NCBI RefSeq assembly: GCF_000717175.1
Contig: NZ_JNYD01000028.1
Location: forward strand, 1 to 64,000
Reading direction: 5' to 3'
Origin: Pseudonocardia autotrophica
GTDB taxonomy: Bacteria > Actinomycetota > Actinomycetes > Mycobacteriales > Pseudonocardiaceae
DNA: 64,000 bases
Every line of letters starts with the position of its first letter. The first letter of the stretch is position 1. Shown here one piece after another: positions 35,180 through 52,706 of this stretch. Both the position numbers and the translations under genes were made by a program. Below the pieces are notes generated by a model that saw only the letters and a list, made by a program, of their open reading frames with translations, ran no database searches and was not told the origin of the DNA.

Positions 35180-35609
35180 CGCTGGTCCTTCCCAGCGGCC
35201 ACGCCCGGAGCTCGAGACCACTGACGCCGGACTCGAAGGCCCGACCCTGTGAGCAGCACGCCGGGCGGCCCACGCCCCTCGTCGCCGCGCCACGGTTCAC
35301 CGTCGCCGACACTTGGTTGCTCACCATGCTGCTCATCGCCTCGCGGTGCTCAGCCTCGTCCCGAGCCTCACGCTGCCCGGAGAGCGGGCCGGACCTGGAC
35401 CTCAGCTGGCGATCATGGGCGGCCGAGCGGAACGCCGCTGTTACCTGGGCGGCCGTCTGCGATACTCGGCAGCAACCTCTCGCAACGTCATCCTCATCTC
35501 TGTGCACCGTGCACAGCGTCTGCCCGGCAAGTATCGCTCTCAGGGCCAGTGACCCGGCCGTTCGCCGCTGCTTCACTGACTCAACCCCCACATGAGAGAC
35601 GGTGATCAC
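35180..35609. other. Intergenic region upstream of APC permease
   Basis: About 430 bp without a supported gene. It must hold the permease promoter, but no clear -35/-10 pair is seen. A minus-strand frame at about 35330-35240 begins MSSMVSNQVSATVNRG and is too short and unplaced to call. Confidence 0.4.
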
Positions 35610-37088
35610 ATGACGGCGACGCCAGTCGTGCCCTCGGCGGACCCCGCGCGGTCCGCCGCCCCGGACGGTCTGAGCCGCGACAGCATCGGGGTCGCGGGAA
35701 TCGTCTTCTTCATCATCGCGGCGGCCGCCCCGCTCACCGTGGTCATCGCGCTGTTCCCGGTGATCATGGGTTCCGGCAACGGGGTCGGGACGGCCGGAGC
35801 GTTCCTCCTGGTCGCCGCGGTGCTGCTGGTCTTCGCGGTCGGCTACGTCGCGATGAGCAGGCACGTGCGCAACGCCGGAGCGTTCTACTCCTACGTCAGC
35901 CTCGGTCTCGGCCGTCCCCTCGGTCTCGGCGCGGCCGGGCTGGCGATCTTCGGCTACAACGCGATCCAGCTGGGGCTCTACGGCGGCATCGGCTACTACG
36001 CTCACGAGCTCGTCACCGGCTGGATCGGAGTGGACCTGCCGTGGTGGCTCTACTCGCTGGTCGCCCTCGCGGCCTGCCTCGCGCTGGGCGCCAATCACAT
36101 CCACTCGGGCGCTCGGGTGTTGGGCGTCCTGCTGTTCCTGGAGACGGTCGTGATCGTCGTGCTGGACGTGGCAATCCTGGTGAACTCGCCGACGCCGGCG
36201 TCCCAGTGGTCGTTCGACCCGATCTCGCCGACCACGGTGTTCGCCGGGGCGATCGGGGTGGCCCTGATGTTCGCGCACGCGTCGTTCATCGGCTTCGAGG
36301 GCAGCGCGATCTACAGCGAGGAGGCCCGCGACCCGCGCCGTACGGTGCCCCGCGCCACATACATCGCCGTGGTGTTCATGGGCGTGTTCTACGCGATCAC
36401 TGCCTTCCTGATCGTGAACTCGTTGGGTGTGGGCAACGCGGTGGGAGTGGCTCAGGACTCCGGCGGTGACCTCGTGTTCGTGGTCAGCGACTCGGTGCTG
36501 GGCGGCTGGATGACCGGCGCTTTCCGCGTCCTGATCATCACGAGCATGTTCGCCGCGATCGTTACCTTCCACAACAACGTAGCGCGGTACCTGTTCTCGC
36601 TGGGCCGGCAGGGTGCGCTGCCCGCGGCGCTCGGCCGAACGCACGCTCGCAAGCAGTCCCCGGTCACGGCCTGCGTGGTGCAGACGGTCATGGTCGGGCT
36701 GGTCATCGTGGTCTTCGCGATCGCCGGGCTCGACCCCTACGCTGCCCTGTTCACCTGGATGACCGGTATCGGCGCCGTCGGGATCATCCTGCTGCAGTTC
36801 GTGGCGAGCATCGCGGTCTTCGTGTGGTTCCGCCGCACGAACCACGACAAGCGGGTGTGGAACACCGTGATCGCCCCGCTGCTTGGCATCGCGGGCCTCG
36901 CTCCGTTTCTGTGGTTCGCCCTCACCGAAATTGATGTCCTGCTGGGCACCGGCGGCTGGCTGGCCGCCCTGCTCGTTGGGCTCGTCTTCCTCTCCCTGTT
37001 GGGCGCGACGGTGTGGGGGCTGTGGCTCAAGCGGGCCCGGCCCGCCGTCTACGACGGGCTGCTCACCGGGGTGGGCGACCGGGCGTGA
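35610..37088 (+). CDS. APC-superfamily amino acid/amine permease (492 aa)
   Basis: Integral membrane transporter with about 12-14 hydrophobic helices. The first helix (GVAGIVFFIIAAAAPLTVVIAL) has the unwound-helix pattern of the APC fold, and FEGSAIYSEEARDPRRTVPRATY around residue 230 is the conserved E-A-RDP loop of amino acid permeases. ATG 35610 is preferred; an ATG 18 bases upstream is possible. It ends 17 bp before the convergent end of the PucR gene. Together with the divergent kinase-lyase operon it probably imports the amine substrate. Confidence 0.9.
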   Translation: MTATPVVPSADPARSAAPDGLSRDSIGVAGIVFFIIAAAAPLTVVIALFPVIMGSGNGVGTAGAFLLVAAVLLVFAVGYVAMSRHVRNAGAFYSYVSLGLGRPLGLGAAGLAIFGYNAIQLGLYGGIGYYAHELVTGWIGVDLPWWLYSLVALAACLALGANHIHSGARVLGVLLFLETVVIVVLDVAILVNSPTPASQWSFDPISPTTVFAGAIGVALMFAHASFIGFEGSAIYSEEARDPRRTVPRATYIAVVFMGVFYAITAFLIVNSLGVGNAVGVAQDSGGDLVFVVSDSVLGGWMTGAFRVLIITSMFAAIVTFHNNVARYLFSLGRQGALPAALGRTHARKQSPVTACVVQTVMVGLVIVVFAIAGLDPYAALFTWMTGIGAVGIILLQFVASIAVFVWFRRTNHDKRVWNTVIAPLLGIAGLAPFLWFALTEIDVLLGTGGWLAALLVGLVFLSLLGATVWGLWLKRARPAVYDGLLTGVGDRA

Positions 37089-37105
37089 GGCGGCCGGGCG
37101 GACGG

Positions 37106-38317
37106 TCAACGGTCGGGCTGCGCCTCGGCCGCCGTCCGCCCCGGACGGGAGCGCAGCCACTCCAGGGCCATCGTCAGGCGGGCCGTGTGTTGCGGGACCG
37201 ACAGGTCGAGACCGGTGGCGGTCTCGACGGTCTGCAGCCGGTTCCGGATGGTGTTGCGGTGCCGGTAGGTTCGCTCGGCGACCTCGGCGATCGAGCCGAA
37301 TTCGAGAAAGCTGCGCAGCGTCCCCAGCAGACCCTCCGAGTCCCGCAGCGCCAGCAACGGGGCGAGCACCTCACGGGCCATGGGTCCGGTCAGCTCGTCC
37401 TGCCCGGACATGATGGCGCCGATCCAGTGCTCCCGGATCGGGCGCAGCCCTGGCGCCGCATCGCTGCGGCTCGCGGCGCGGGCGAACCGGACGCCGCGGG
37501 GGACCTCAGCCAGCCCGGCCACGTCCGCGGTGCCGCACCGCCAGCCGCCGAGTGGCTCGAGCAGGGCGTGCACGGCGGCGCTGTCCCGCTTGCCCCGGTT
37601 GACCACGCCGAGCAGCTCGTCCCCGAGGTAGCCGAGGTAGCAGGGCAACGACGCGCGCTGCAGCGCGGTCCGGCAGGACTCAAGCCTGCGGTCCTGGGTG
37701 GGCACGCCCTCCGCGACAACCACGACCAGGGGTGCGTCGGCCGGGATCCCAAGCAGCGAGGACACGTCCGTGACCACGCTCGGGTCGCGCTCGCCCTCGA
37801 GCACCAGGCGCTCGAAGGCCCGCGCGCGGATCTCCCCGCGGTGGCTGGCCAGGTCTCGCTCGGTGCGCCGGTATGCGTCGACCACCTCGACACTGTTCGC
37901 CTCGGTGGCCTCCCAGACCAGCAGAAGGCCGTCGAGGAACCCGGGATCCTCGGTGAGCCTGCGCCGCCTTCCCTCGCTGACGATCGCCTCCCAGAGCGTG
38001 CGCAGGTCCAGCTGGAAGGAGTGGATGAGGGCGGGCAACGGGAATCCCTGCTCGGCCCGCTGCCGACCGACGTCCGCGGTGGCTCGGGCCACGTGCGGGG
38101 GCACCGGCTCGCCGGAGAGCCGGGTGAGCGCCAGCTCGAGCGTGCGCCGCATGCCGGCGAGCTTCACTCCGGGTGCGGCCTCCATCCGCGCGTAGGCGGG
38201 TTCCTCGGCGTCCAACCGCTCCTGGGCGTGCCGGGCCAGCGCGTCGAGCTGCTCGGTGAGCAGCATCCGGGCGATCGACCGCACCGCCTCGGCGTGCGGG
38301 GCGGTCGCCTCAGCCAT
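37106..38317 (-). CDS. PucR family transcriptional regulator (403 aa)
   Basis: Regulator of the PucR/CdaR group. Its C-terminal helix-turn-helix reads SIAEVAERTYRHRNTIRNRLQTVETATGLDL (about residues 343-373). The middle part, GILLGIPADAPLVVVVAEG-like, resembles the GGDEF-related domain of PucR proteins, and the N-terminal 150 residues are helical with an RsbRD-like look. It is transcribed away from the kinase-lyase operon across a 244-bp gap, the usual layout for a regulator of a divergent amine or purine catabolic operon. ATG 38317. Confidence 0.9.
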   Translation of the reverse strand: MAEATAPHAEAVRSIARMLLTEQLDALARHAQERLDAEEPAYARMEAAPGVKLAGMRRTLELALTRLSGEPVPPHVARATADVGRQRAEQGFPLPALIHSFQLDLRTLWEAIVSEGRRRRLTEDPGFLDGLLLVWEATEANSVEVVDAYRRTERDLASHRGEIRARAFERLVLEGERDPSVVTDVSSLLGIPADAPLVVVVAEGVPTQDRRLESCRTALQRASLPCYLGYLGDELLGVVNRGKRDSAAVHALLEPLGGWRCGTADVAGLAEVPRGVRFARAASRSDAAPGLRPIREHWIGAIMSGQDELTGPMAREVLAPLLALRDSEGLLGTLRSFLEFGSIAEVAERTYRHRNTIRNRLQTVETATGLDLSVPQHTARLTMALEWLRSRPGRTAAEAQPDR

Positions 38318-38561
38318 GGAACGACGATGCCGCAGTGATGTGCATGAAGCACACTAACTCAGCCGGTGTCGATGCGCGTACATCAGCTTAAAGGATCTCA
38401 CATGCTGTTTCGCAGAGGATACTTCGTTCGGTGACGAGGGTGTTGTGCGTGGGGCACAGCAGGGGCGGCCGAGATCGCGCCGCTGGCCCATTGGTCCTGG
38501 CACCCCGTTGGCGTTGTATCGAGACGTACCCCGGTGACCCGAGAAAGTGAGACCTCCCGAA
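38318..38561. promoter_or_regulatory. Divergent control region, PucR gene / kinase-lyase operon
   Basis: A 244-bp gap between divergent starts. It is less GC-rich than its flanks at about 38350-38440. It contains the inverted repeat TGTGC-ATGAA-GCACA at 38339-38353, 22 bp upstream of the PucR start codon, which could be an autoregulatory operator. No strong -10/-35 pairs stand out. Operator function is inferred from symmetry and place only. Confidence 0.5.
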
Positions 38562-41528
38562 ATGACCTTCGCGACCACTTCGGACTCGCGCCCGGTCACG
38601 GGTGCACGCCGCCCCGTCCTGCCGGCGGAGCTCCTAGCGGAGGTGCTGCGCCGTGACTTCGGGATCGCCGCCGCCGCGCAGACCCCGCTCGGCGGCGAGG
38701 TGGACCTGAACCTGCGGGTGGACGACGAGCAGGGCAGACCGCACTTCGTCCGAGCCAGTCGCGCGGAGCCCGGATCGGCCGACATCGCCTGGCAGAACGC
38801 GTTGCTGCGGCACCTCGAGGCCACGGTCCCCGAGCTGCCGGTGCCCCGGCTGGTCCCGACCCTGACCGGCGCCGACGGCGTCGACCTGGTGCACGACGGT
38901 GCCGCCTTCACAGTCCGCGTGCTGTCCTGGGTCCCTGGCCGCACCCTGGCCGACACTGCGGAGCACCCGCCCGCCCTGCTCACTGCGTTGGGTCGGATAG
39001 CCGGGCAGCTGAACCTTGGCCTCTCTGGCATGGCCCGCCCCGAGGGCGGACTCCCTCCGCACGACTGGGACATGCGGCGCGCGGCGGAGGTGGTGGGGGA
39101 GCCCGGCGACATCGTGACCGACCCGTCGGACCTCGCGGACGTCCGGCGGATCATGGCCTGGTACGCCCGGATCCACCCCGTGCTGGCCGAACTACCCCAC
39201 GGCGTCGTGCACCAGGACCTCAATGACGCCAACGTGCTCGCCCTGGACGGCGAGATCTCCGGAGTCGTCGACGTCGGCGACGCCCTTTACAGCATCCGGG
39301 TCGCCGAGGTGGCCATCGCCGCCGGCTACGCCATGGTGCGCAAGGCCGATCCGCTGGCCGCCGCCGCGCACGTCGTGGCCGGCTTCCACTCGGTGGTGCC
39401 GCTGACCGCCGAGGAGATCGCCGCGATCTACCCGCTCGCCGCGGCCCGACTCTGCATGAACGCGGTGACCTGGAATCGGCGGGTCGCCGAGTCCGGCTCG
39501 GAGTACGGGCGCACCCGCTCCAGGCACACCTGGCCCACCATCCGGATGCTCGCGCAGGTTCCGCCGGACGCCGCCGAGGCGGTCTTCCGGGTGGCCTGCG
39601 GGCTGCCCGACCACCGCCCGACCGCGCCCGCCGAGGAGCTCGCCGCGGCCGTCGAGCGCGGGTTCGCCGGGGCCGGGAACATCGTCGCCCTCGACGCGCG
39701 TCCCGCGAGCGAGCTCTACGACGACGTCGACTGGACCGACGCGGCCGCCCTACGGGCCGCCGTCACCACCAAGCTGGCGGGCCGCCCCGGCGTGCTGGGA
39801 CACCTCGAGGCCTCGCTTGCCTGGTCGGCACGCCGCCGCCCAGGCTCGGCCGAGCCCGCCACCGTGCGGGTCGGCAGCACCGTGCTGCTGCCCGCCGGGA
39901 CAGAGGTCGCCGCGCCTGCGAACGGCCTGGTCGTCCGCGCCGGGAGTCCCCTGGTTGTCCGGCACGGCGAGGTCTTCAGCTGCTGGTGGTCCCTGGACGC
40001 CGCCGTCGAGCCGGGCGACCCGGTGACCGCGGGCCAGGTGCTGGGCACTGTGGCCGAGGGCGACGCCGAGCCCGGTTTCGGCCCCGGCGTGCAGGTGCAG
40101 CTGGTGCGCTCGGCGGACGTGGCCGCCTGGCCGCCACCACGGCGGGTGAGCCCCTCGTGCCGACGCACTTGGCGGCTGCTCACCACTGACCCCACGCCGG
40201 AGCTCGGCCGGCTGCCCGAGGAGCTCACCGTCGACGAGGTCGTGGCGGTGCGCGGTAGGCGGATCGCCCGATCGCAGCGCAACTACTACGCCCGGCCGAT
40301 GAACCTGGTTCGCGGCCGCGACGTCTGGTTCTACGACGAGGACGGCCTGGCCTACCTCGACTCGCTCAACAACGTGACCCATGTGGGCCACGCCGAGCCC
40401 CGGGTCGCCGCGGCGAGCCACCGCCAGATGCGAACCCTCAACACCAACAGCCGCTTCGTGTACCCGCAGATCGCCCGGTACGCCGAGAAGCTCGTGGCCA
40501 CCCTGCCCGAGCCCCTCGAGGTGGTGTTCCTGGTGTGCACCGGCAGCGAGGCCAACGACCTGGCGCTGCGAATCGCCCGCCAGGTCACCGGCCGGGTGGA
40601 TCTGGTCAACATCGACGGCGCCTACCACGGCAACACCGGCGTCGTCACCGGGATCAGCCCGAACCGCTACAAGGGCCCGGGGGGGCAGGGCGCCCCGCCG
40701 ACCACGCACGAGGTGCGGATGCCGGACCGCTACCGCGGCCCCTACGGCTACGACGACCCCGGCGCCGGCGCCCGCTACGCCCACGACGCCGCCGAGGTCA
40801 TCGCTCGGATCGACGCCGACGGCCGGCGCCCGGCGGCGTTCATCGCGGAGTCGCTGATGGGCAGCGGCGGCAACATCGTGTTCCCGCAGGGCTACCTGCA
40901 GGGTGCGTTCGCCGCGGCCCGAAAGGCGGGCGCACTCTGCATTTCTGACGAGGTGCAGGTGGGCGTGGGCCGGCTGGGCTCCTGGTGGGGCTTCGAGCTG
41001 CAGGGCGTGGTGCCGGACATCGTGACGATGGGCAAGCCGCTGGGCAACGGACACCCGCTCGCCGCCGTTGTCACCACCCGGGCGATCGCCAACGCCTTCG
41101 ACACCGGCATGAAGTACTTCAACACCTTCGGCGGCAACCCGGTGTCGTGCGCCATCGGCGAGACCGTGCTCGACATCGTGGAGCGCGACGGGCTGCGGGA
41201 CAACGCTGTGAAGGTCGGCGGGTACTTCGCCGAGCAGCTCCGGGCGCTGGCCGAGCGGCAGCCGATCATCGGTGACGTCCGCGCCGAGGGCCTCTACCTC
41301 GGCGTCGAGCTGGTCCGCGACCGGGTGACGAAGGAGCCGGCCACCCGTGAGGCCTTCGCGGTGACCGAGCTGACCAAGGAGCGCGGCGTGGTCGTGTTCC
41401 CAAACGGCGTGCACGACAACGTCCTGAAGATCAAGCCCCCCATGACCTTCCGGCGCGAGCACGTCGACACCTACGTCGAGGTGCTCGACGATGTCCTGTC
41501 CCTGCCCGAACTCACCCTCGACAAGTAA
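38562..41528 (+). CDS. Kinase / M23-like / phospho-lyase fusion (988 aa)
   Basis: Three parts. Residues about 1-345: APH-fold kinase like hydroxylysine kinase, with VVHQDLNDANVL (catalytic Asp219) and SGVVDVGDALYSIRVAEVA. About 395-520: an M23/biotinyl-like beta domain without zinc ligands. About 545-985: class III PLP enzyme with ISDEVQVGVGR and PLP Lys825 in MGKPLGNGHPLAAVV, then KYFNTFGGNPVSCA, the pattern of AGXT2L ammonio-phospholyases rather than ordinary transaminases. Predicted chemistry: phosphorylate an amino alcohol, then eliminate phosphate and ammonia to leave an aldehyde. The next gene encodes an aldehyde dehydrogenase. GTG 38547 is an alternative start. Confidence 0.9.
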   Translation: MTFATTSDSRPVTGARRPVLPAELLAEVLRRDFGIAAAAQTPLGGEVDLNLRVDDEQGRPHFVRASRAEPGSADIAWQNALLRHLEATVPELPVPRLVPTLTGADGVDLVHDGAAFTVRVLSWVPGRTLADTAEHPPALLTALGRIAGQLNLGLSGMARPEGGLPPHDWDMRRAAEVVGEPGDIVTDPSDLADVRRIMAWYARIHPVLAELPHGVVHQDLNDANVLALDGEISGVVDVGDALYSIRVAEVAIAAGYAMVRKADPLAAAAHVVAGFHSVVPLTAEEIAAIYPLAAARLCMNAVTWNRRVAESGSEYGRTRSRHTWPTIRMLAQVPPDAAEAVFRVACGLPDHRPTAPAEELAAAVERGFAGAGNIVALDARPASELYDDVDWTDAAALRAAVTTKLAGRPGVLGHLEASLAWSARRRPGSAEPATVRVGSTVLLPAGTEVAAPANGLVVRAGSPLVVRHGEVFSCWWSLDAAVEPGDPVTAGQVLGTVAEGDAEPGFGPGVQVQLVRSADVAAWPPPRRVSPSCRRTWRLLTTDPTPELGRLPEELTVDEVVAVRGRRIARSQRNYYARPMNLVRGRDVWFYDEDGLAYLDSLNNVTHVGHAEPRVAAASHRQMRTLNTNSRFVYPQIARYAEKLVATLPEPLEVVFLVCTGSEANDLALRIARQVTGRVDLVNIDGAYHGNTGVVTGISPNRYKGPGGQGAPPTTHEVRMPDRYRGPYGYDDPGAGARYAHDAAEVIARIDADGRRPAAFIAESLMGSGGNIVFPQGYLQGAFAAARKAGALCISDEVQVGVGRLGSWWGFELQGVVPDIVTMGKPLGNGHPLAAVVTTRAIANAFDTGMKYFNTFGGNPVSCAIGETVLDIVERDGLRDNAVKVGGYFAEQLRALAERQPIIGDVRAEGLYLGVELVRDRVTKEPATREAFAVTELTKERGVVVFPNGVHDNVLKIKPPMTFRREHVDTYVEVLDDVLSLPELTLDK

Positions 41529-41537
41529 GGACCCCTG

Positions 41538-42974
41538 ATGCCGACCGAGCTGTTCCAGTACCTCGCGGGCGAGGCTGTCCCCGCCGCCTCCGGCGCGCTG
41601 GACGACGTTCTCAACCCGGCCACGGGCGAGGTCATCGCCCGGGTCCCCGCGGGCGGCGCCGAGGACGTCGAGAAGGCTGTCGCCGCCGCCGACGCCGCGT
41701 TCTGGCCGTGGGCCGAGACCCCGCCCGCGGAGCGGTCCGCGGCGCTGCTCAAGCTGGCCGACCGGCTGGAGGGCGCCCGCGAGGAGGTGGCGGTGCTCGA
41801 GTCGGACAACGTCGGCAAGCCGCTGCACATCGCCCGCGAGGAGGTCGACTTCGCCGTCGACAACTTCCGGTTCTTCGCCGGCGCCGCGCGGGTGCTGGAG
41901 GGTAGGGCGGGCGGCGAGTACTCGGCCACCCACACCAGCTTCATCCGCCGGGACCCGCTCGGCGTCGTCGGCAGCGTGGCGCCGTGGAACTTCCCGCTGG
42001 TCATGGCGGCGTGGAAGATCGGCCCGGCGTTGATGACCGGCAACACGCTGGTGCTCAAACCCAGCGAGCAGACCCCGCTCACCGCGCTCAAGCTCGCCGA
42101 GCTGGCCGCGGACCTGTTCCCGGCAGGCGTGCTCAACGTCGTCACCGGGCACGGCGGGACCGTCGGTGAGGCGATCACCACCCACCCGAAGGTCCGGATG
42201 ACCTCGCTGACCGGTGACACCGCCACCGGCAAGCGGGTCGCGGTGGCCGCCAGCGGCAACCTGAAGCGGCTGCACCTGGAGCTGGGCGGCAAGGCCCCGG
42301 TCCTGGTCTTCGCCGACGCCGATCTCGACCTGGCCGTCCGCAAGATCGTCGAGGGCGGCTACGGCAACTCCGGACAGGACTGCATGGCCGCCTCGCGGGT
42401 CTATGTCGAGGCCCCGATCCACGACGAGTTCGCCGCGGCGCTGGCCAAGGCGGTCGGGAACGTCGCGATGGGCGATCCCCGCCTGGACACGACGGAGATG
42501 GGCCCGGTCATCTCGCAGGCCCACCTGGACCGGGTGACCGGCTTCGTGGACCGCGCCACGACGACGGGGGAGGGCGAGCTCGTGGTCGGTGGCCCCGCCT
42601 CCGGGCCCGGCTTCTGGTACAAGCCGTCGCTGCTGGTCGGCGTCCCGCAGCAGGCCGAGATCGTGCAGAAGGAGGTCTTCGGCCCCGTCGTCACCACCAC
42701 CCCGGTAGCGGACGAGACGCAGGCCTTCGCCTTCGCCAACGACGTCGAATACGGCCTCGCCGCCTCGGTGTTCACCTCCAGCGTGTCCCGCGCACTGCGG
42801 GCGGCCCGCCGGCTCCAGTTCGGCACCGTCTGGATCAACGAGCACCTGCCGATCGTCTCGGAGATGCCGCACGGCGGCTTCAAGCAGTCCGGGCACGGCA
42901 ACGACATGTCGATGTACTCGCTCGAGGAGTACACCGAGATCAAGCACGTCATGATCAACCTGGTCGAGGGCTGA
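41538..42974 (+). CDS. Aldehyde dehydrogenase (aminobutyraldehyde-DH-like, 478 aa)
   Basis: NAD-dependent ALDH. Seen: GVVGSVAPWNFPLVM, KPSEQTPLTALKLAEL, SLTGDTATGKRVA, catalytic Glu in LHLELGGKAPVLV and catalytic Cys in SGQDCMAASRVYV. The GQDC-AASR form and 478-aa length are most like gamma-aminobutyraldehyde dehydrogenases. Starts 9 bases after the kinase-lyase stop with GTAAGGA upstream, so co-transcribed. It would oxidise the aldehyde released by the lyase to its acid. Confidence 0.93.
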   Translation: MPTELFQYLAGEAVPAASGALDDVLNPATGEVIARVPAGGAEDVEKAVAAADAAFWPWAETPPAERSAALLKLADRLEGAREEVAVLESDNVGKPLHIAREEVDFAVDNFRFFAGAARVLEGRAGGEYSATHTSFIRRDPLGVVGSVAPWNFPLVMAAWKIGPALMTGNTLVLKPSEQTPLTALKLAELAADLFPAGVLNVVTGHGGTVGEAITTHPKVRMTSLTGDTATGKRVAVAASGNLKRLHLELGGKAPVLVFADADLDLAVRKIVEGGYGNSGQDCMAASRVYVEAPIHDEFAAALAKAVGNVAMGDPRLDTTEMGPVISQAHLDRVTGFVDRATTTGEGELVVGGPASGPGFWYKPSLLVGVPQQAEIVQKEVFGPVVTTTPVADETQAFAFANDVEYGLAASVFTSSVSRALRAARRLQFGTVWINEHLPIVSEMPHGGFKQSGHGNDMSMYSLEEYTEIKHVMINLVEG

Positions 42975-43002
42975 GTCCCCCACACGAGTAAGGAGCCGGC
43001 CG

Positions 43003-43359
43003 ATGAGCCACGACGCCCCCGACGGACGCACCCTGGTCGTCAACATGTTTCGGATGCGTCCCGGTGTCGACCCGGCGAAGTTCGCCGAGTTCTCCGCCGC
43101 CGTGGACCAGCCCCTGGTGACTGCCCACGCCGAGGTGGTGACCCGCTTCGACGCCTACGTCGTCGGCGGGACCACGGCCGAGGCCCTCGATGCCGACATC
43201 GTCGAGGTCCTGGAGGTCACCGACTGGGACACCTGGGTCCGGGTACGGGACAACGACCCGTCTTTGCGGCCGGTGATGTCCGGGTTCGACGAGCTCGTCG
43301 AGCCCGGCTCCGTCCGCTCCAACTTCGTCACCCCGATCCCGAGAGGCAGCACGCCATGA
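43003..43359 (+). CDS. Dimeric alpha/beta-barrel small protein (118 aa)
   Basis: Small ferredoxin-like-fold protein resembling RedY-type and antibiotic-monooxygenase-like proteins: TLVVNMFRMRPGVDPAKFAEFS forms strand one and helix one, DADIVEVLEVTDWDTWVRVRD the second half. AAGGAG precedes ATG 43003; its stop overlaps the next ATG. No catalytic residue can be assigned. In this operon it may bind or isomerise an intermediate, or assist the FAD enzyme encoded next. Confidence 0.75.
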   Translation: MSHDAPDGRTLVVNMFRMRPGVDPAKFAEFSAAVDQPLVTAHAEVVTRFDAYVVGGTTAEALDADIVEVLEVTDWDTWVRVRDNDPSLRPVMSGFDELVEPGSVRSNFVTPIPRGSTP

Positions 43360-45086
43360 GCACCAGCTACGACGCCATCGTCATCGGGGCGGGTCACAAC
43401 GGCCTGATCTCCGCCAACTACCTCGCCCGCGCCGGCAAGAAGGTGGTGGTACTCGAGGCGCGGGATGTGGTGGGAGGCGCCTGTACCACCGAGGAGCTGA
43501 TCCCCGGCGCGAAGTGGTCCTCCTGCGCCTTCATCCAGGGCCTGCTCCGCCCGGAGATCATCACCGAGCTGGAGCTGGCGAAGTACGGCCTGGAGATGTA
43601 CCAGACCGAGGCCATGGAGGTCGTCATCTTCGACGACGCCAGCCACATGTTCATGTGGAAGGACATGGACCGCACGCTCAAGGAGCTGGAGAAGTTCTCC
43701 AAGACCGACGCCAAGGCCTACCTCGACTTCGGCGTGCGCATCAAGAAGTTTGCCCAGATCATCACGCCCTTCCTGATGAAGCCGCCGACCAGCCGCTCCG
43801 AGGTGCTGGCGGCGTTCGAGGCCGAGGGCGCCGAGGACCTGTTCGACGAGTTCGTGCTCTCGTCCACGAAGGACCTGCTGGACCGCTACTTCCATTCCGA
43901 GCACATCAAGGGCCTGTTCACCTTCTTCGGAATGATCTCGGTGTGGGGCGGACCGTCGACCCCTGGCACCGGGTACGTCTACGGCCACCACTCGGTCGGC
44001 GAGTTCGAGGGTCACCTCGGGCAGTGGGGCCTGGTCAAGGGCGGCATGGGCGGCATCACGCTGGCTATGACCCGGGCCGCGGAGGCGCACGGCGCAGTCG
44101 TCCGGACCGGGGCGCCGGTGCAACAGGTGCTGGTCTCCGGCACGAAGGTCACGGGCGTCCGGTTGAAGTCCGGCGAGGAGATCCTCGCGCCGGTGGTGCT
44201 GTCCAACGCCGACCCGGCCCGCTCAATCCTGCAGCTGCTGCCCAAGGGCACGGTCAAGCCGTCGATCGAGAAGGCGGTGCAGCAGTACGACAACCGCGGC
44301 TCGATGGCCCGGATCCACCTGCTGGTCGACGAGCTGCCCGAGTACATCGGCTTTCCCGCCGGCCAGGGCCCACAACACGAGGCCCAGGCGATCATGGGCG
44401 CATCGGTGGAGAACTTCGAGCGCGCCTGGGAGGCCCAGCGCCGTGGCGAGCTGCCCGAGGACTTCGTGATCGAGGCGATGATCCAGTCGGTCACCGACCC
44501 GGGCCTGGCGCCGGAGGGCAAGCACACGCTGACCCTCGGCGTACAGCAGCTGCCCTTCGAGCTCAAGGGCACCACCTGGGACGAGATGCGGGACAAGTTC
44601 GCCGACGCCGTGCTGCAGGTGCTGTTCCGCTACGCGCCGAACCTGCGCGACCACATCCTCGACCGCGTGGTGATCACGCCGCTGGACCTGGAGCGTGACT
44701 ACGGGCTCACCGGCGGGAATATCTTCCACGGGGCGATGTTCCTGGACCAGCTGTTCGGCAGCCGGCCCGCGCCGGAGCTGGCGGACTACCGCACCCCCGT
44801 CACGGGCTACTACCTCTGCGGCTCGGGCACGCACCCGGGCGGCGGGGTCATGGGCGCCAACGGGCACAACGCGGCCAAGGTCGTCCTCGACGACATGCAC
44901 CACCCGGCCGGTCGGACCCCGGCGGCGGCGCAGGCGAGGCCCGCCGTCACAGGCCGGACGCCGGTCACGGACCGGTTCATGTCAGCTGTGATGGGCACGA
45001 AGTGGGGCCGCGAGCTCGGCTACCGCGTGGCCCGGCAGCCCGCGCTGCGCAAGGTCGTCAAGATCTTCACCCGCAGCGGTGTCTGA
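43356..45086 (+). CDS. Phytoene-desaturase-like (CrtI/PYROXD2-type) FAD oxidoreductase
   Basis: 576 aa. N-terminal FAD motif DAIVIGAGHNGLISANYLARAGKKVVVLEA and GGACTTEEL, and C-terminal FAD segment GSGTHPGGGVMGANGHNAAKV are those of CrtI-related amino-oxidase-fold proteins. No other carotenoid gene is near, so a carotenoid role is unlikely; PYROXD2-like homologues have ill-defined redox functions. The last 50 residues (TPVTDRFMSAVMGTKWG...) form an extra C-terminal tail. ATGA overlap with the preceding gene and an 8-bp overlap with the following one show tight coupling. Confidence 0.88.
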   Translation: MSTSYDAIVIGAGHNGLISANYLARAGKKVVVLEARDVVGGACTTEELIPGAKWSSCAFIQGLLRPEIITELELAKYGLEMYQTEAMEVVIFDDASHMFMWKDMDRTLKELEKFSKTDAKAYLDFGVRIKKFAQIITPFLMKPPTSRSEVLAAFEAEGAEDLFDEFVLSSTKDLLDRYFHSEHIKGLFTFFGMISVWGGPSTPGTGYVYGHHSVGEFEGHLGQWGLVKGGMGGITLAMTRAAEAHGAVVRTGAPVQQVLVSGTKVTGVRLKSGEEILAPVVLSNADPARSILQLLPKGTVKPSIEKAVQQYDNRGSMARIHLLVDELPEYIGFPAGQGPQHEAQAIMGASVENFERAWEAQRRGELPEDFVIEAMIQSVTDPGLAPEGKHTLTLGVQQLPFELKGTTWDEMRDKFADAVLQVLFRYAPNLRDHILDRVVITPLDLERDYGLTGGNIFHGAMFLDQLFGSRPAPELADYRTPVTGYYLCGSGTHPGGGVMGANGHNAAKVVLDDMHHPAGRTPAAAQARPAVTGRTPVTDRFMSAVMGTKWGRELGYRVARQPALRKVVKIFTRSGV

Positions 45087-47886
45087 GACGCCTGTCGACC
45101 GCGCCGGCATCGACCGATCGGCCGGCACCCGTTCGCTCTACGCCTACGACGCATCGAGCTACCGGGTCCTCCCGGCCGGAGTCGCCTTCCCCGGCGACAT
45201 CGCCGAGGTGCAGCGGATCCTCGCCGAGTGCCTGGGCAACGGGGTCCCGGTCACCTGCCGCGGTGCCGGGACCTCAATGGCGGGCAACGCCGTCGGCGCA
45301 GGGGTGGTGCTGGACTTCTCGCGGCACATGAACCGGGTCCGCGCGATCGACCCGGTCGCCCGCACCGCGACCGTCGAGCCTGGCGTGGTGCTCGACGCGC
45401 TGCAGGCCGAGCTTGCCCCGTACGGGCTGATGTTCGCCCCGGACCCGTCCTCGCACAGTCGAGCGACGGTCGGGGGGATGATCGGCAACGACGCGTGCGG
45501 CAACCACTCGGTGCGCTACGGCCGCACGTCCGGGCACGTCGTGGCCCTGGAGCTGCTGCTGGCCGACGGGACGCACCTGGTCGCCGAGCGCGGCGGCCTG
45601 CGTGCCGCCGACCCCACGGACGCCGCCGCCGTGGCCCGCGCCGCGGAGCTGGCGGAGGGCCTGCGCGGGATCATGGGGGAGCACCTCGGCCGGATCCGAC
45701 TCGACCTCGGCCGGGTCCCGCGCCAGGTCTCGGGCTACCAGCTCCAGCATCTGCTGCCGGAGAACGGGTTCGACGTGGCCCGGGCGCTGGTGGGCAGTGA
45801 GGGCACCTGTGCGGTGGTCGTCGGGATCACGGTGTCCCTGGTGCCCCGGCCCGAGGCCGTGCAGCTCGTGGTGCTGGGCTATCCGGACATCGTGACCGGC
45901 GCGCGGGACGTGCCGGCCCTGCTGGAGTCCGCGCCAGCGGCCGTCGAGGGGATCGAGGAGACGATCGTCGACGCCCTGCGCGCCCGGCGCGGCCCGGCCA
46001 GCGTCGCCGGGCTGCCCGAAGGCCGCGCGTGGCTGTTCGTGGAGCTGGAGGGCCCCAATCCGGAGGCGCTCGCCCTGGAGGGCAAGCAGCTCGTGACGCG
46101 GCTGGAGGGGCTGGGCGGGCTGACCGCCGGGCGGATCGTCACCGACCCCGGGGAGCGCGCCGCGCTGTGGCGGGTCCGCGAGGACGGCGCCGGGCTCGTC
46201 GCCCGCCGACCCGACGGACGGTCCACCTGGGCCGGCTGGGAGGACTCCGCCGTCGACCCGGCGAACCTGGCCGACTACCTCGCCGACCTGCGGGCACTGC
46301 TCATCGCGCACGGCCTCGACGGCGTGTTCTACGGCCACCTCGGCGCCGGCTGCGTGCACATCCGGATCGACTTCGATCTGGAGACCGAGCAGGGCGTGGC
46401 CGCGATGGCCGCCTTCGCCGCCGACGCCGCGGACCTGGTGCGCGGGCACGGCGGCAGCGTCTCCGGGGAGCACGGCGACGGACGGGCCCGCAGCGCGCTG
46501 CTGGAGCGGCTGTACGGCCCGGAGCTGATCGCGGCGTTCGCGCAGTTCAAGCGGCTGTTCGATCCCGGGGACCTGCTCAACCCGGGGATAATCGTGGACC
46601 CGGCCCCGCTCGACGTCGACCTGGCCCCCTTCGTGCCCCTCCCACTCCCCGTGGGGTCCACCGCGTTCGCCTACCCCGAGGACCCCGCCGGGTTCGCGGG
46701 CGCAGCCGGCCGGTGCATCGGCGTGGGCCGCTGCCGCGCCGACGGCGGGGCGATGTGCCCCAGCTACCAGGCCACCCGCGAGGAGCGCGACTCCACCCGC
46801 GGCCGCGCCCGGATGCTGCAGGAGATGATCCGGCAGGGCCCGGTCGCCGACGGCTGGCGCTCCACCGAGGTGCGGGACGCCCTGGACCTCTGCCTGTCCT
46901 GCCGAGCCTGCGCGAGCGACTGCCCGGCCGGGGTGGACATGGCCACCTACAAGGCCGAGTTCCTGCACCTCCACCACAAGGGCCGGATCCGCCCGCGCAC
47001 CCACTACTCGCTGGGCTGGCTGCCGGCGGCCGCCGCGCTCGCCCGCCGGGTCCCCGCGCTCGCGAACGCGGTGCTGCGGGCACCGGGAACCGCGTGGCTC
47101 GCCGGCATCGCACCGGAACGGGCGATGCCGCGCTTCGCCCGGCGCGGGGCGTACCGGCGGGCCCGCGCCCTGCCCGCGACCGGCGGCGGCCGGCTGTTCG
47201 TGGACTCCTTCACCCGGGCCTTCCGCCCCGAGGTGCTCGGTGCGGCGCAACGCGTGCTCGGCAGCGCGGGCGGCGCTCCGCAGCCGATCGACGGCGTGTG
47301 CTGCGGGCTGACCTGGATCAGCACCGGGCAGCTGGGCGTGGCCCGGCGGGTGCTGCGTCGCACGGTCGCGCGGCTCTCCTGGGGCACGGACCCGATCGTC
47401 GTCCTGGAGCCCAGCTGCGCCGCCGCCCTGAAGCACGACGCCCCGCGGCTGCTCTGCACCCCCGAGGCGGCCGCCGTGGCCGCGCGGGTGCGGACGTTCG
47501 CCGAGGAGCTGGAGCACCGGCTCGACGCGGGCTGGACGCCCCCGCCGCTGCCCGGGCCCGCCGTACTGCAGACGCATTGCCACGAGCGCGCCGTGTTCGG
47601 CGCAGGCCAGTCCCGGCTGCTCGCCCGGCTGGGGATCACCGGCGTCGCCGAGGCCACGGGCTGCTGCGGGCTGGCCGGGAACTTCGGGGTGGAGCGCGGC
47701 CACCACGAGGTCTCGACCGCCGTCGCCGAGCTGTCCCTGGCCCCTGCCCTGCGCGCGGCCGCACGGGACACCGCGGTGCTCGCCGACGGCTTCAGCTGCC
47801 GCACCCAGATCGACCACCTCGGCTCGCCGACCCGCCCCCGCCACCTCGCCGAGCTGATCGCCGACCACCTGGAGGAACCCCGTTGA
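45079..47886 (+). CDS. FAD-binding and Fe-S oxidoreductase (GlcD-GlcF-type fusion, 935 aa)
   Basis: 2-hydroxyacid dehydrogenase fusion. Residues about 20-530 are a PCMH-type FAD domain (CRGAGTSMAGNAVGAGVVLD, GGMIGNDACGNHSVRYG) with the FAD-oxidase C-terminal domain (FYGHLGAGCVHIR, SGEHGDGRARS). The remainder carries Fe-S Cys motifs, one partial (CIGVGRC...MCPS) and one full (CLSCRACASDCP), then two CCG motifs (GVCCGLTW, GCCGLAGNFG). Similar proteins oxidise D-lactate, glycolate or D-2-hydroxyglutarate to the quinone pool. It starts at GTG 45079 inside the previous gene. Confidence 0.93.
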   Translation: MSETPVDRAGIDRSAGTRSLYAYDASSYRVLPAGVAFPGDIAEVQRILAECLGNGVPVTCRGAGTSMAGNAVGAGVVLDFSRHMNRVRAIDPVARTATVEPGVVLDALQAELAPYGLMFAPDPSSHSRATVGGMIGNDACGNHSVRYGRTSGHVVALELLLADGTHLVAERGGLRAADPTDAAAVARAAELAEGLRGIMGEHLGRIRLDLGRVPRQVSGYQLQHLLPENGFDVARALVGSEGTCAVVVGITVSLVPRPEAVQLVVLGYPDIVTGARDVPALLESAPAAVEGIEETIVDALRARRGPASVAGLPEGRAWLFVELEGPNPEALALEGKQLVTRLEGLGGLTAGRIVTDPGERAALWRVREDGAGLVARRPDGRSTWAGWEDSAVDPANLADYLADLRALLIAHGLDGVFYGHLGAGCVHIRIDFDLETEQGVAAMAAFAADAADLVRGHGGSVSGEHGDGRARSALLERLYGPELIAAFAQFKRLFDPGDLLNPGIIVDPAPLDVDLAPFVPLPLPVGSTAFAYPEDPAGFAGAAGRCIGVGRCRADGGAMCPSYQATREERDSTRGRARMLQEMIRQGPVADGWRSTEVRDALDLCLSCRACASDCPAGVDMATYKAEFLHLHHKGRIRPRTHYSLGWLPAAAALARRVPALANAVLRAPGTAWLAGIAPERAMPRFARRGAYRRARALPATGGGRLFVDSFTRAFRPEVLGAAQRVLGSAGGAPQPIDGVCCGLTWISTGQLGVARRVLRRTVARLSWGTDPIVVLEPSCAAALKHDAPRLLCTPEAAAVAARVRTFAEELEHRLDAGWTPPPLPGPAVLQTHCHERAVFGAGQSRLLARLGITGVAEATGCCGLAGNFGVERGHHEVSTAVAELSLAPALRAAARDTAVLADGFSCRTQIDHLGSPTRPRHLAELIADHLEEPR

Positions 47887-49358
47887 CCACCACCCTCAGC
47901 TCGCCCGCCGACGTGATCGGCACCGTCGACACCCGGTTGGTGATCGGCGGTAGGCGCACCGAGGCGAGCGACGGCGCCCGGTTCGACGTGCTCGACCCGG
48001 CCACCGGCGAGGTCCTCGCCGCGGTCGCCGACGCCACCCCGCAGGACGGTCGGGCGGCGGTGGTCGCGGCCGTCGCGGCCCAGGCCGGCTGGGCCGCCGT
48101 CCCGGCCCGCAAGCGCGGCGAGATCCTGCGCCGCGCCCACGAGGCGCTGCTCGCCGACACCGAGCGGCTCGCCACGATCATGACTCTGGAGATGGGCAAG
48201 TCCCTCACCGAGGCCCGAGGCGAGGTCCGCTACGCCGCCGAGTTCTTCCGCTGGTTCGCCGAGGAGGCTGTGCGGCTCGAGGGCTGGTACGGCCACACGC
48301 CGGACGGCGCGTCCCGGGCGATCGTGGCGAGCCAGCCGGTCGGCCCCTGCCTGCTGATCACGCCATGGAACTTTCCGCTGGCCATGGGCACCCGCAAGAT
48401 CGGGCCCGCGCTCGCGGCGGGCTGCACGGTCGTGCTCAAGCCGGCGCCGCAGACGCCGTTGTCCAGCCTCGCGCTGGCCGACGTGCTGGCCGCGTCGGGC
48501 GTCCCCGAGGGCGTGGTCAGCGTGCTGCCCGGCAGCCGCGCCGCCGAGGTCGTCGAGCCGCTGCTGCGCGGCGGAGACATCCGCAAGCTCTCCTTCACCG
48601 GCTCGACGGCGGTCGGCCGGATCCTGCTGGAGCAGGCGTCCACGGCGATCGTGCGGACCTCGCTGGAGCTGGGCGGCAACGCACCCTTCGTGGTCCTCGC
48701 CGACGCCGACCTCGACGAGGCCGTCGACGGCGCGATGGCCGCCAAGATGCGCAACATGGGGGAGGCCTGCACCGCGGCCAACCGGATGTTCGTGCACCGC
48801 TCGCTCGCCGCAGAGTTCGGCCGCAGGCTCGCCGAGCGGATGGGCGCGCTGCGCGTGGGCAACGGGCTCGACGAGGGCACCGAGGTCGGTCCACTGATCG
48901 ACGCACCGAGCCTGGCCAAGGTGGGCTCGCTGGTCGACGACGCGGTTTCCCGCGGCGCGCAGGTGCTGGTCGGCGGCGCGCCCGCCGAAGGCCCCGGCTA
49001 CTTCTACCCGCCGACCGTGCTCACCGACGTCGCCCCGGACAGCGCGCTGTGCGCCACCGAAATCTTCGGCCCGGTCGCCGCCATTCAGGTGTTCGACGAC
49101 GTCGACGACGCGATCGCGCGGGCCAACGCCACCGAGTGGGGGCTAGTGGGCTATGTGTTCACCCGCGACGTCGACCGGGCGCTGGCGGTCTCCGAGGCCC
49201 TCGAGGTCGGCATGGTGGGGCTCAACGTGGGCGTGGTGTCCAATCCTGCGCTGCCCTTCGGCGGTGTGAAGCAGTCCGGGCTGGGCCGCGAGGGCGGCCG
49301 GCACGGCATCGCCGAGTTCCTGGAGCAGAAGCTGGTGGTCCTGCCCAAGCGCGGCTGA
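47883..49358 (+). CDS. Aldehyde dehydrogenase (succinate-semialdehyde-DH-like, 491 aa)
   Basis: Second ALDH of the operon: ITPWNFPLAMGTRKIGPALAAG, KPAPQTPLSSLAL, SFTGSTAVGRIL, catalytic Glu in SLELGGNAPFVV and catalytic Cys in GEACTAANRMFV. The GEAC-AANR pattern and PALPFGGVKQSGLGREGG C-terminus are those of NAD(P)-dependent succinate semialdehyde dehydrogenases. TTG 47883 overlaps the FAD/Fe-S stop by 4 bp. With the first ALDH it suggests a pathway with two aldehyde stages, or one passing through a 4-carbon semialdehyde. Confidence 0.92.
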   Translation: MTTTLSSPADVIGTVDTRLVIGGRRTEASDGARFDVLDPATGEVLAAVADATPQDGRAAVVAAVAAQAGWAAVPARKRGEILRRAHEALLADTERLATIMTLEMGKSLTEARGEVRYAAEFFRWFAEEAVRLEGWYGHTPDGASRAIVASQPVGPCLLITPWNFPLAMGTRKIGPALAAGCTVVLKPAPQTPLSSLALADVLAASGVPEGVVSVLPGSRAAEVVEPLLRGGDIRKLSFTGSTAVGRILLEQASTAIVRTSLELGGNAPFVVLADADLDEAVDGAMAAKMRNMGEACTAANRMFVHRSLAAEFGRRLAERMGALRVGNGLDEGTEVGPLIDAPSLAKVGSLVDDAVSRGAQVLVGGAPAEGPGYFYPPTVLTDVAPDSALCATEIFGPVAAIQVFDDVDDAIARANATEWGLVGYVFTRDVDRALAVSEALEVGMVGLNVGVVSNPALPFGGVKQSGLGREGGRHGIAEFLEQKLVVLPKRG

Positions 49359-49374
49359 TCCGCGCCCGAGAACC

Positions 49375-49405: not shown

Positions 49406-49571
49406 CCTCGGCGTGCCCGGAGCCGGTTTCACACCCGCTGAGCAGGAAATACAACCTTCACGCAGGGTGGACGCAAACAACGCAAAGGCGATTGAGGCCA
49501 CCCCGGCGGGCTCCCTACCTTCCTCCCCACCGAGCCCGACCGAAGGGCTCACCGGCCCGAGAAGTGAGGAC

Positions 49572-51326
49572 ATGGCGTCGCACAGGACTTCCACCAGCCC
49601 GGCCCTCCGGGAGGACGTGGACGGCACCGTGGCCGCCCCGCACGAGGTCTCGGTGCGGGCCGGCCTGGAGATGCTGGAGCGCGGCGGCACGGCCGTGGAC
49701 GCGGCGGTGGCCGCCGCGCTCGTGGCCGGTGTCGTCGAGCCCGCCGAGACCACCCTGGCCGGCAGCGGCTTCCTGGTGCTGGCCGACCCGGCCGACGGCG
49801 CGTGGTCGGTCGAGTTCGGGCCGCGCGCCCCCCGCACGGCGCACTCCACGATGTACGCCCTCGACCTCGACTCGCAGGACTACCCGGTCAACGGGGTCGC
49901 CGCCGTCGTGGGCAAGGCGAACAGCGACGGTCCGCTGGCCACGGGAGTGCCCCGCACCCTGCTGGGCCTGCTTACCGCCCAGGAGCGGTTCGGCAGGCTG
50001 CCCCGCCGGATGGTCCTGGCACCTGCGATCGCCGCGGCCGCCGACGGTTTCGCGATCGATCCGTTCTTCCTGGTCTCGGCGCTGGGCGACCTGGGAAGGC
50101 TGGGCCGCGACGCCGGTGCCCGCGCCACCTTCCTCGACGCGGAGGGCCTGCCGCTGGGTCGGACCTCCGGCAGCCACGCCGGAACCAGCTACGCGCCCCC
50201 GTCCCGGCTCCCGCAGCCGGTGCTCGCGGCGACGTTGGCCGAGGTGGCCGACGCTCCGGACCTCGACCTGCTGCGCACCGGCGCGGTGGCCGAGCGGATC
50301 GTCGCCACCTCCGGGGAGCTGGGTGGGATCCTCACCGCGGCGGACCTCGCCGCGTCCGCACCGGACATCGTCCGGCCGCTGAGCACGGTCTTCCGCGGGC
50401 ACGAGATCCTCGTGCCGGCCGCGCCGAGCGGCGGGCTCACCCAGCTGCAGGCGCTGGCAACCTGGCAGGCCCTGCACCCCGAGGGCGGGCCGATCGAGGA
50501 CACCGCCGAGCGCACCCGGCAGCTGGCCGCGGTACTGCTGCACGCCTTCGCCGACCGCTACCACTGGCTCGGCGACCCGGACGTGGTGCCGGTGCCGCCG
50601 GCGTCGGCCCTGCTGGCGCCGGGCTACATCCGGCTGCTCGCCGAGCAAGTGCGCGCCAGGGCCGTTCCGACCACAGAGGGCGCTCCGCCGTGGAGCTTCT
50701 ACGCGGGCCGGGCCGAGCACGACCCGTGGGCGTTCGCCACGAGCCACGTCCCGGCCTGGGAGCCCGAGCTGGCCTCAACCCCGACCGCCGGGACCACCCA
50801 CGTCTCCGTGGTCGACGCCGAGGGCCGGGCGGTGTCGGTCACCCACACCGCCGCCCACCCCTTCGGCTCCGCGATCGTCTGCTCGCGGACCGGCCTGCTG
50901 CTCGACTCGGCGATGGCGTGGTTCAACGCCGCGCCGGGCGCAGCGAACAGCATCCGCCCCGGGGCCCGGCCGCTGGCCAACATGGGCCCCACGGTGATCA
51001 CCCACGAGGGCCGCCCGGTCGCGGCGCTCGGCGCGTCGGGTGGCCGCCGGATCATCAGCACGATGGTCCAGCTGGTGATCAACCTGCTGGACCGGCGAAC
51101 GTCGCTCACGGATGCCCTGGCGGCCCCGCGGGTCGACGCGAGCGGGCCCGAGCTGTTGCTGCAGGGCTCGCTCGGCACGCACGCCCCGGAGCTCGCCGAT
51201 CTTGCCGCGGTCGCCGTCCGCGGCACCAACGCGCCCTTCACCACGGACTTCGCCCGGGCCAATGGCGCGGTCCGGCACGCAGGCGGGACCCGCTCCGCCG
51301 TCGACGCCCTTTGCTTCGCCCCCTAG
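49572..51326 (+). CDS. ggt: Gamma-glutamyltransferase family protein (584 aa)
   Basis: Ntn hydrolase made as one chain and self-cleaved. N-terminal half: APHEVSVRAGLEMLERGGTAVDAAVAAAL, typical of GGT. Cleavage and nucleophile site GTTHVSVVDAEGRAVSVTHT places the catalytic Thr at residue 408; ANSIRPGARPLANMGPTV follows. No clear Sec or Tat signal peptide is seen in the first 40 residues, so it may be cytoplasmic, unlike many GGTs. ATG 49572 after GTGAGGAC. It could hydrolyse gamma-glutamyl-amine conjugates in the adjacent amine pathway. Confidence 0.9.
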   Translation: MASHRTSTSPALREDVDGTVAAPHEVSVRAGLEMLERGGTAVDAAVAAALVAGVVEPAETTLAGSGFLVLADPADGAWSVEFGPRAPRTAHSTMYALDLDSQDYPVNGVAAVVGKANSDGPLATGVPRTLLGLLTAQERFGRLPRRMVLAPAIAAAADGFAIDPFFLVSALGDLGRLGRDAGARATFLDAEGLPLGRTSGSHAGTSYAPPSRLPQPVLAATLAEVADAPDLDLLRTGAVAERIVATSGELGGILTAADLAASAPDIVRPLSTVFRGHEILVPAAPSGGLTQLQALATWQALHPEGGPIEDTAERTRQLAAVLLHAFADRYHWLGDPDVVPVPPASALLAPGYIRLLAEQVRARAVPTTEGAPPWSFYAGRAEHDPWAFATSHVPAWEPELASTPTAGTTHVSVVDAEGRAVSVTHTAAHPFGSAIVCSRTGLLLDSAMAWFNAAPGAANSIRPGARPLANMGPTVITHEGRPVAALGASGGRRIISTMVQLVINLLDRRTSLTDALAAPRVDASGPELLLQGSLGTHAPELADLAAVAVRGTNAPFTTDFARANGAVRHAGGTRSAVDALCFAP

Positions 51327-51338
51327 GAGAGACCCGCC

Positions 51339-52697: not shown

Positions 52698-52706
52698 GCT
52701 GGCGGG

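Follow-up and report, generated by a model that had tools for sequence, protein, structure and literature searches.

A conserved operon around a kinase-phospholyase fusion in Pseudonocardia autotrophica looks like an undescribed breakdown route for a hydroxylated amine

The stretch of DNA analysed here (the window) comprises 64,000 nucleotides of the soil bacterium Pseudonocardia autotrophica (assembly GCF_000717175.1, contig NZ_JNYD01000028.1, positions 1 to 64,000) and encodes a 988-aa protein in which a kinase, a spacer resembling M23 metallopeptidases and a pyridoxal phosphate (PLP)-dependent enzyme are fused. The gene lies in a real, well-conserved catabolic operon, which looks like an apparently undescribed breakdown route for a hydroxylated amine. 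We consider it likely that the fusion is a two-step kinase-lyase enzyme with a structural spacer, working within a dedicated catabolic operon: the APH-type kinase half would phosphorylate the hydroxyl of a 1-amino-2-hydroxy compound, and the PLP half would then eliminate phosphate and ammonia to leave an aldehyde, in the manner of ETNPPL and PHYKPL. The domains, the catalytic residues, the lyase-type motif and the shared operon membership are the sequence-based part of this reading; the reaction itself, the order of the steps and the carboxylate discussed below are its inferred part. The kinase-lyase fusion is a known type of protein, and what is new is the operon as a conserved pathway.

Catalytic halves and spacer of the fusion

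An initial annotation had described the protein as a kinase joined through an M23-like spacer to an AGXT2L-type PLP domain, and the domain matches, the lyase motifs and the kinase residues all agree with that description. Its parts are as follows.

38562..41528, + strand: kinase / M23-like spacer / PLP phospholyase fusion, 988 aa (Pfam APH 3e-20, M23 5e-6, Aminotran_3 5e-76)
38619..39671, + strand: kinase part, approximately residues 20-370 (Pfam APH at residues 44-273)
39672..40196, + strand: M23-like spacer, approximately residues 371-545 (Pfam M23 at residues 440-513, below cut-off)
40197..41525, + strand: putative PLP ammonio-phospholyase part, approximately residues 546-988, with PLP lysine K825 and with K956 and K958

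The AlphaFold2 model of the whole fusion, built from a 55-sequence alignment, had a mean predicted local distance difference test (pLDDT) score of 90.3 and a predicted template-modelling (pTM) score of 0.88. The APH-type kinase signature is present, with HQDLNDAN as the HxDxxxxN loop and DVGD as the DxxD metal site, and residues H217, D219, N224, D237 and D240 are invariant in 55 of 55 aligned rows, the window included. Judged from these residues, the kinase catalytic site is intact. The sole solved structure that matched the kinase part up to E=1 was homoserine kinase 2ppq (E=1e-3). Among the separate kinases of split versions of the system, 12 of the 14 read match the kinase motifs by a simple pattern, and L110 and L116 do not as written.

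The M23-like nature of the spacer holds as a weak match (27.1 bits versus the Pfam cut-off of 28.7), but the zinc ligands (HxxxD, HxH) have gone from the window protein. An active M23 peptidase in this fusion is thereby ruled out, and the spacer would be structural. The spacers from S. meliloti (L063) and Neolewinella (L040, L041) retain what looks like a full M23 zinc site, with HLGxDxx, GHL and PHLHF. Any HxH at all was found in the spacers of 4 of 55 close homologues, possibly in register in one only (P0104). From these comparisons, a metallopeptidase-like spacer with a zinc site appears to occur in some fusions and to have decayed in the clade of the window.

Human ETNPPL gave the best match to the PLP half by sequence among PDB entries (E=2e-118). 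By fold, ETNPPL/AGXT2L1 (6tor) again came first (46% identity over the lyase half, TMt 0.94) and the Arthrobacter aurescens phospholyase A1RDF1 (5g4i) next, so that the same two proteins lead in sequence and in fold alike. The window enzyme shares with ETNPPL the PLP fold, the lyase motifs and the KIKPP pattern, but the human enzyme is separate and has no kinase, whereas the window kinase is fused. A1RDF1, which among solved structures is closest to the split Mycolicibacterium lyase, differs from the window fusion in having KMRPP, Asp at position 763 and no fusion partner.

Class III transaminases bind the substrate carboxylate through a conserved arginine, and at the position of this arginine pattern the window PLP half has K956 and K958. 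Every phospholyase-type row compared (above 260 bits), whether from a fusion or from a split enzyme, carries Lys at 956 together with Lys or Arg at 958, and K956 is kept in 54 of 55 aligned fusions. The window protein also carries the NN and T/S-R motifs of phospholyases. There are 12 class III places in its own genome, one of them the fusion; among the other 11, all five readable enzymes (L001, L003 to L006) have Arg at 956 and no NN motif. Fused rows show Glu763 with Lys958 as in ETNPPL, and split rows Asp763 with Arg958 as in the Arthrobacter enzyme; L055 and L056, which matched in the lyase part only and have split-type residues, were left unclassified as fused or split. That the change from Arg to Lys marks the phospholyase family is our own inference from 6tor and 5g4i. 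By the available sequence tests, the PLP half looks like an ammonio-phospholyase, and we are fairly sure of the kinase/phospholyase biochemical class of the fusion.

A plain omega-transaminase with a non-catalytic kinase-like domain would be in line with the Pfam and NCBIfam names for the PLP half, which are aminotransferase class III or hypothetical and nothing more specific. Against this very improbable alternative stand the replacement of the class III arginine by lysine in a lyase pattern, the invariance of the kinase residues and the annotated kinase gene that adjoins the split lyase at 12 of the 13 opened plasmid loci of this kind, all but L119. A phosphonate route was also rejected. PbfA, the (R)-1-hydroxy-2-aminoethylphosphonate ammonia-lyase, is presented as a class III PLP lyase (PMC8154272). 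The window fusion scored 215 bits against the PbfA profile, far under its cut-off of 525, and no phosphonate genes occur among the annotated genes at 35592-53699.

A search at E<=1e-3 gave at least 1380 homologues of the fusion, a lower bound as only the 7992 candidates sharing most words were scored, so the fusion is no chance open reading frame (ORF). APH and Aminotran_3 are both present in 116 of the 120 homologues listed, its own protein included. It aligns over almost its full length with NCBIfam PRK06148 (852 bits) and PRK06149 (758 bits), but below their curated cut-offs (1128 and 973), and these families are named only 'hypothetical protein' and 'aminotransferase'. With these families and homologues in place, we rejected the idea of a novel protein layout. 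Veiga-da-Cunha et al. are said to have used bacterial fusions of this kind in 2012 to find the human enzymes.

Gene content and conservation of the operon

The genes around the fusion are listed below, with succinate-semialdehyde dehydrogenase abbreviated to SSADH and gamma-glutamyltransferase to GGT.

35592..37088, + strand: APC-family amine/amino-acid permease, 498 aa (Pfam AA_permease_2, 2.5e-26)
37106..38317, - strand: PucR-type regulator, divergent from the fusion (Pfam HTH_30 and GGDEF_2)
41538..42974, + strand: ALDH1, an aldehyde dehydrogenase of the aminobutyraldehyde dehydrogenase subfamily (NCBIfam PRK13473)
43003..43359, + strand: dimeric alpha/beta-barrel (EthD-like) protein, 118 aa (homologues, AlphaFold2 model, Foldseek)
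43356..45086, + strand: CrtO/CrtI-type FAD oxidoreductase (Pfam Amino_oxidase; NCBIfam CrtO below cut-off; PDB CrtI-type 4dgk)
45079..47886, + strand: FAD, 4Fe-4S and CCG hydroxyacid dehydrogenase, YdiJ/GlcD-like (FAD_binding_4, FAD-oxidase_C, Fe-S and CCG; motifs)
47883..49358, + strand: SSADH-like aldehyde dehydrogenase with R171, R290 and S453
49413..51326, + strand: GGT-family enzyme, probable operon member (profile match)
51339..52697, + strand: MFS metabolite/H+ symporter, probable operon member
52707..53699, + strand: LacI-type regulator, end of the gene run

The gaps from the fusion to the SSADH gene measure 9, 28, -4, -8 and -4 bp; because they are so tight, 38562-49358 looks like a single transcription unit. 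The GGT, MFS and LacI genes follow at spacings of 54, 12 and 9 bp. The permease, the PucR regulator, the two aldehyde dehydrogenases and the hydroxyacid dehydrogenase named in the initial annotation are all real and in place, except that the permease start given there, 35610, is an in-frame downstream ATG of an ORF that begins at 35592. The proposal that the fusion heads a whole route stood in that the genes are conserved together, but it had overlooked the CrtO-like and EthD-like members. Upstream of the permease, at 33673-34785, lies an open frame of transposase appearance, which we take to resemble the IS256/Mutator type.

We compared 34 fusion loci, including the window (L009) and several with short flanks; since the simple ORF picker misses and misplaces genes, conclusions rest on tblastn and hidden Markov model results. 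In 29 of the 34, the window included, the fusion has a PucR relative nearby, and most of the operon recurs in two loci besides the window. In Mycolicibacterium (L031) we found ALDH1, EthD-like, CrtO, APC, fusion, hydroxyacid dehydrogenase, SSADH and LacI genes, the last likewise 3' of the SSADH gene; in S. iranensis (L034) the set is PucR, APC, fusion, ALDH1, EthD-like, CrtO, GGT and MFS, with the GGT (44% identity) also 3' of the module. The APC permease thus adjoins the module in both.

The CrtO-like gene occurs at 39 places in 28 of 248 Mycolicibacterium genomes and falls into identity classes: type A (13 places, 72-75%), type B (25 places, 61-64%) and one place at 45% (L107). The loci read were all 13 of type A, 12 of the 25 of type B, L107, and a type B locus from another family (L081). 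The type A layout has GntR, ALDH1, EthD-like, CrtO and APC genes facing divergent kinase, lyase, hydroxyacid dehydrogenase and SSADH genes. Kinase and lyase are present at 12 of the 13 places, split at 11 and fused at one (L091); the remaining locus (L084) reaches a contig end, and its genome has an 83% identical lyase on another contig. Lyase orthologues of at least 82% identity occur in 12 of the 248 genomes (the own copy of G896 included), all 12 of them type A, and the 13th type A genome (G1128) has a fusion at that place. The co-occurrence of close lyase and type A CrtO gave a Fisher p of about 6e-22, a significance that is overstated because kinship was ignored.

A 61-row tree places the fused lyases in one clade and the split lyases in another, both supported (99/98 and 100/98); the tool warned that the transaminase rows in it include long branches. 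The L031 and L091 fusions group with the window fusion, apart from the split lyases of their own genus. One operon thus uses two distantly related kinase-lyase versions, which is the best evidence that both activities belong to the route and are not chance neighbours.

A further split version is found on plasmids of Rhizobium CIAT894 and A. tumefaciens CFBP7129, where split kinase and lyase genes accompany ALDH1 (51%) and CrtO (52-53%) together with a sugar-type ABC importer. A rhizobial 144-aa protein was rejected as an EthD-like orthologue, with no tblastn match at E<=1 in L060 or L061.

Several observations weigh against a dedicated operon built on these two activities. None of the rest of the module was seen in the remaining 31 of the 34 fusion loci, some of which have short flanks; these are mostly Streptomyces loci with fusions about 65-69% identical to that of the window, and PucR is retained. 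The kinase and lyase can thus serve in other settings, as the presence of PucR without the module in other fusion loci indicates. The S. iranensis locus lacks the hydroxyacid dehydrogenase and SSADH genes, the type A locus L092 lacks the hydroxyacid dehydrogenase gene, and neither SSADH nor hydroxyacid dehydrogenase was seen near the rhizobial split version. Split lyases of lower identity, down to about 38%, often occur in Mycolicibacterium without the module; split lyases of any closeness occur in 76 of the 248 genomes at E<=1e-80, some type A included. Two of the partner enzymes fall under the cut-offs of the families for which they are named: the hydroxyacid dehydrogenase scores 433.5 bits against NCBIfam YdiJ (cut-off 1350) and the operon SSADH 544.5 bits against NCBIfam SSADH (cut-off 646.35). 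Finally, the CrtO-like and EthD-like steps carry no assigned reaction.

The Streptomyces-type loci have recurring ORF clusters of their own: a HAD-type protein in 21 loci, a DAO-type FAD enzyme in 13 and an AstE/AspA-type deacylase in 10, each cluster typed from one scanned member and represented in L011.

Proposed route and candidate substrates

ALDH1 passes PRK13473, the aminobutyraldehyde dehydrogenase profile (671.5 bits versus a cut-off of 615), and the gamma-aminobutyraldehyde dehydrogenase 6c43 is among its three best PDB matches. When the operon SSADH is aligned with GabD and human SSADH, R171, R290 and S453 fall at the TRK, FRN and SN/SS positions, presumably the carboxylate-binding ones of known SSADHs. 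Among the SSADHs compared, the window included, every sequence that covers the position has R171 (13 of 13), R290 (4 of 4) and S453 (3 of 3). In ALDH1 relatives these positions are taken by Trp and then by Gly, Cys or Glu. SSADH-like genes near other fusions (L068, L070, L071; 46-48%) keep the first Arg only, so the carboxylate residues are not general to fusion neighbourhoods.

The CrtO-like enzyme scored 292 bits against NCBIfam CrtO, far under the cut-off of 1000, and its best PDB match is the CrtI-type 4dgk. The EthD-like protein had no Pfam match. It has 17 homologues, its own copy included and some named EthD; 12 of them are on contigs longer than 5 kb, and 10 of these 12 apparently on fusion-bearing contigs (by an indirect match), while one further of the 12, from S. 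iranensis, was seen directly near the fusion in another assembly (L034). Its AlphaFold2 model (pLDDT 87.5, 16 sequences) matched, at low identity, dimeric alpha/beta-barrel proteins in Foldseek, among them methylmuconolactone methylisomerase, HapK and SnoaB. More distant EthD-like genes occur in type B loci without a fusion.

We tentatively propose an order of steps, one that falls a little short of an even chance. The APC permease would take up the substrate, the CrtO-like FAD enzyme and ALDH1 would oxidise one end to a carboxylate, kinase and lyase would strip the amine from the other end to give a semialdehyde, the SSADH-like enzyme would oxidise the semialdehyde, and the FAD/Fe-S dehydrogenase would oxidise a D-2-hydroxy acid. 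The ALDH1 type, together with R171, R290 and S453 of the SSADH, suggests that the lyase releases an aldehyde with a carboxylate. On this reading the substrate may be a hydroxylated gamma-amino acid, 4-amino-3-hydroxybutyrate for example, and the predicted product succinate or malate semialdehyde.

The GABA (gamma-aminobutyrate) shunt consists of aminobutyraldehyde dehydrogenase, GABA transaminase and SSADH. Both flanking aldehyde dehydrogenases of the window operon are of GABA-shunt type, but a kinase/phospholyase stands where the transaminase is expected. In a 'hydroxy-GABA shunt', the reading of the substrate that we favour but still hold doubtful, the imported compound would be a hydroxylated diamine (2-hydroxyputrescine) or an amino polyol (a 4-carbon amino triol). 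Oxidation at one end by the CrtO-like enzyme and ALDH1 would yield 4-amino-3-hydroxybutyrate or the 2-hydroxy form, kinase and phospholyase would stand in for GABA transaminase and produce succinate or malate semialdehyde, and SSADH and the D-2-hydroxyacid dehydrogenase would lead into the tricarboxylic acid cycle. If true, such a shunt would require no keto-acid acceptor, with ATP paying for the deamination.

Type B loci show the CrtO/ALDH1 part in a different setting. This sister gene set (L080, L081, L096-L106) comprises APC, ALDH1, EthD-like, CrtO-like, IlvD/EDD, aldolase and acetaldehyde dehydrogenase genes, and kinase or lyase in none of 13 loci. Acetaldehyde dehydrogenase is present in 13 of 13 (partial in L103) and 4-hydroxy-2-oxovalerate aldolase in 12 of 13. 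The IlvD/EDD dehydratase has a Pfam match for L097 only, and a conserved antisense frame is found in all 13; a supposed conserved 356-aa partner (L080_8088) was rejected as a low-complexity frame opposite a conserved gene (the IlvD/EDD dehydratase in L097). A scan also found a TetR gene in L097. The sister set is perhaps a route for a sugar-like amine or a deoxy sugar. Together with L059 and L082, sugar-like loci with aldose epimerase and IlvD/EDD, the type B loci suggest that the CrtO/ALDH1 part feeds polyhydroxy acids.

The substrates put forward in the initial annotation, namely hydroxylysine, ethanolamine and aminopropanol, fit less well, given the presence of EutB, the missing HglS and the SSADH carboxylate residues, but are still compatible with these findings. 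In an ethanolamine or 1-aminopropan-2-ol route, which we regard as unlikely, kinase and lyase would yield acetaldehyde or propionaldehyde for oxidation by the aldehyde dehydrogenases, and the window lyase does share E763, NSRF and KIKPP with ETNPPL. Such a route would have no need for an aminobutyraldehyde-type aldehyde dehydrogenase, a carboxylate-type SSADH, a hydroxyacid dehydrogenase or a CrtO-like enzyme. Moreover, the genome of the window already encodes the ethanolamine ammonia-lyase EutB, as do 8 of 12 type A genomes (all 13 except G1097 were searched), so ethanolamine has another outlet there.

For 5-hydroxylysine, on which animal enzymes of this kind act, the path would run from alpha-aminoadipate semialdehyde through 2-oxoadipate and D-2-hydroxyglutarate to the YdiJ-like dehydrogenase. 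The latter is present and HglS was found in 6 of the 12 type A genomes searched, but not in the own genome nor in the other six, and the route does not account for the CrtO-like and EthD-like genes or the SSADH; we hold it improbable. As to both EutB and HglS, a second route in the same genome stays compatible with either distribution.

A quite improbable alternative has kinase and lyase acting on hydroxy-diaminobutyrate from hydroxyectoine to give aspartate semialdehyde. A Chelatococcus plasmid (L117:6877-16857) places a split pair beside eutB, eutC, doeA, doeB and ehuB, and the AstE/AspA-type deacylase lies 3' of the fusion in ten Streptomyces/Micromonospora loci (Pfam on one). That neighbourhood was seen in only 1 of the 13 split plasmid loci opened, however, the deacylase read had no NCBIfam match at 1e-30, and no ectoine gene is found among the annotated genes of the window operon.

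Spread and significance of kinase-lyase pairs

The fusion is sparsely distributed: at E<=1e-100, matches came from 7 of 200 genomes in the family and from 8 of 296 in the phylum (own genome included in each; two of the 8, G334 and G337, match in the lyase part only). At E<=1e-70, relatives of the split lyase turned up in 384 of 72,556 plasmid records; the lowest match listed has 35.5% identity, and the annotated ones among the records listed mostly name the protein an aminotransferase.

Other arrangements were seen in passing. A split lyase is found on conjugative plasmids of Klebsiella pneumoniae, where an annotated kinase gene adjoins it in L109 but not in L119. An Amycolatopsis locus (L036:9380-16246) has two different kinase-lyase fusions in tandem with an SDR gene between them. 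A fusion lies near a PxpC-like gene in L037 and L042 and near a PxpA-like gene in L042, and hydantoinase/oxoprolinase genes lie near the split kinase and lyase in plasmid loci L111 and L114. On a Rhizobium N324 plasmid (L116:622-17269), split kinase and lyase genes accompany APC, aldehyde dehydrogenase and P450 genes near hpaE/hpaD, a set that might suit an aromatic amino alcohol, octopamine for instance.

Bacterial ethanolamine and aminopropanol phosphate lyases were described in older biochemistry without their genes. In the open-licence literature searched, we found no tested substrate for any bacterial kinase-lyase pair or fusion, and among its titles and abstract openings nothing that we recognised as an account of this operon. 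The kinase-phospholyase pair occurs widely across plasmids and Mycolicibacterium, mostly under the annotation aminotransferase, and the interchange of fused and split versions in one operon makes it a clean, testable case. One substrate assigned here would help to name the route in Pseudonocardia, Streptomyces, Mycolicibacterium and rhizobia, and to correct many annotations.

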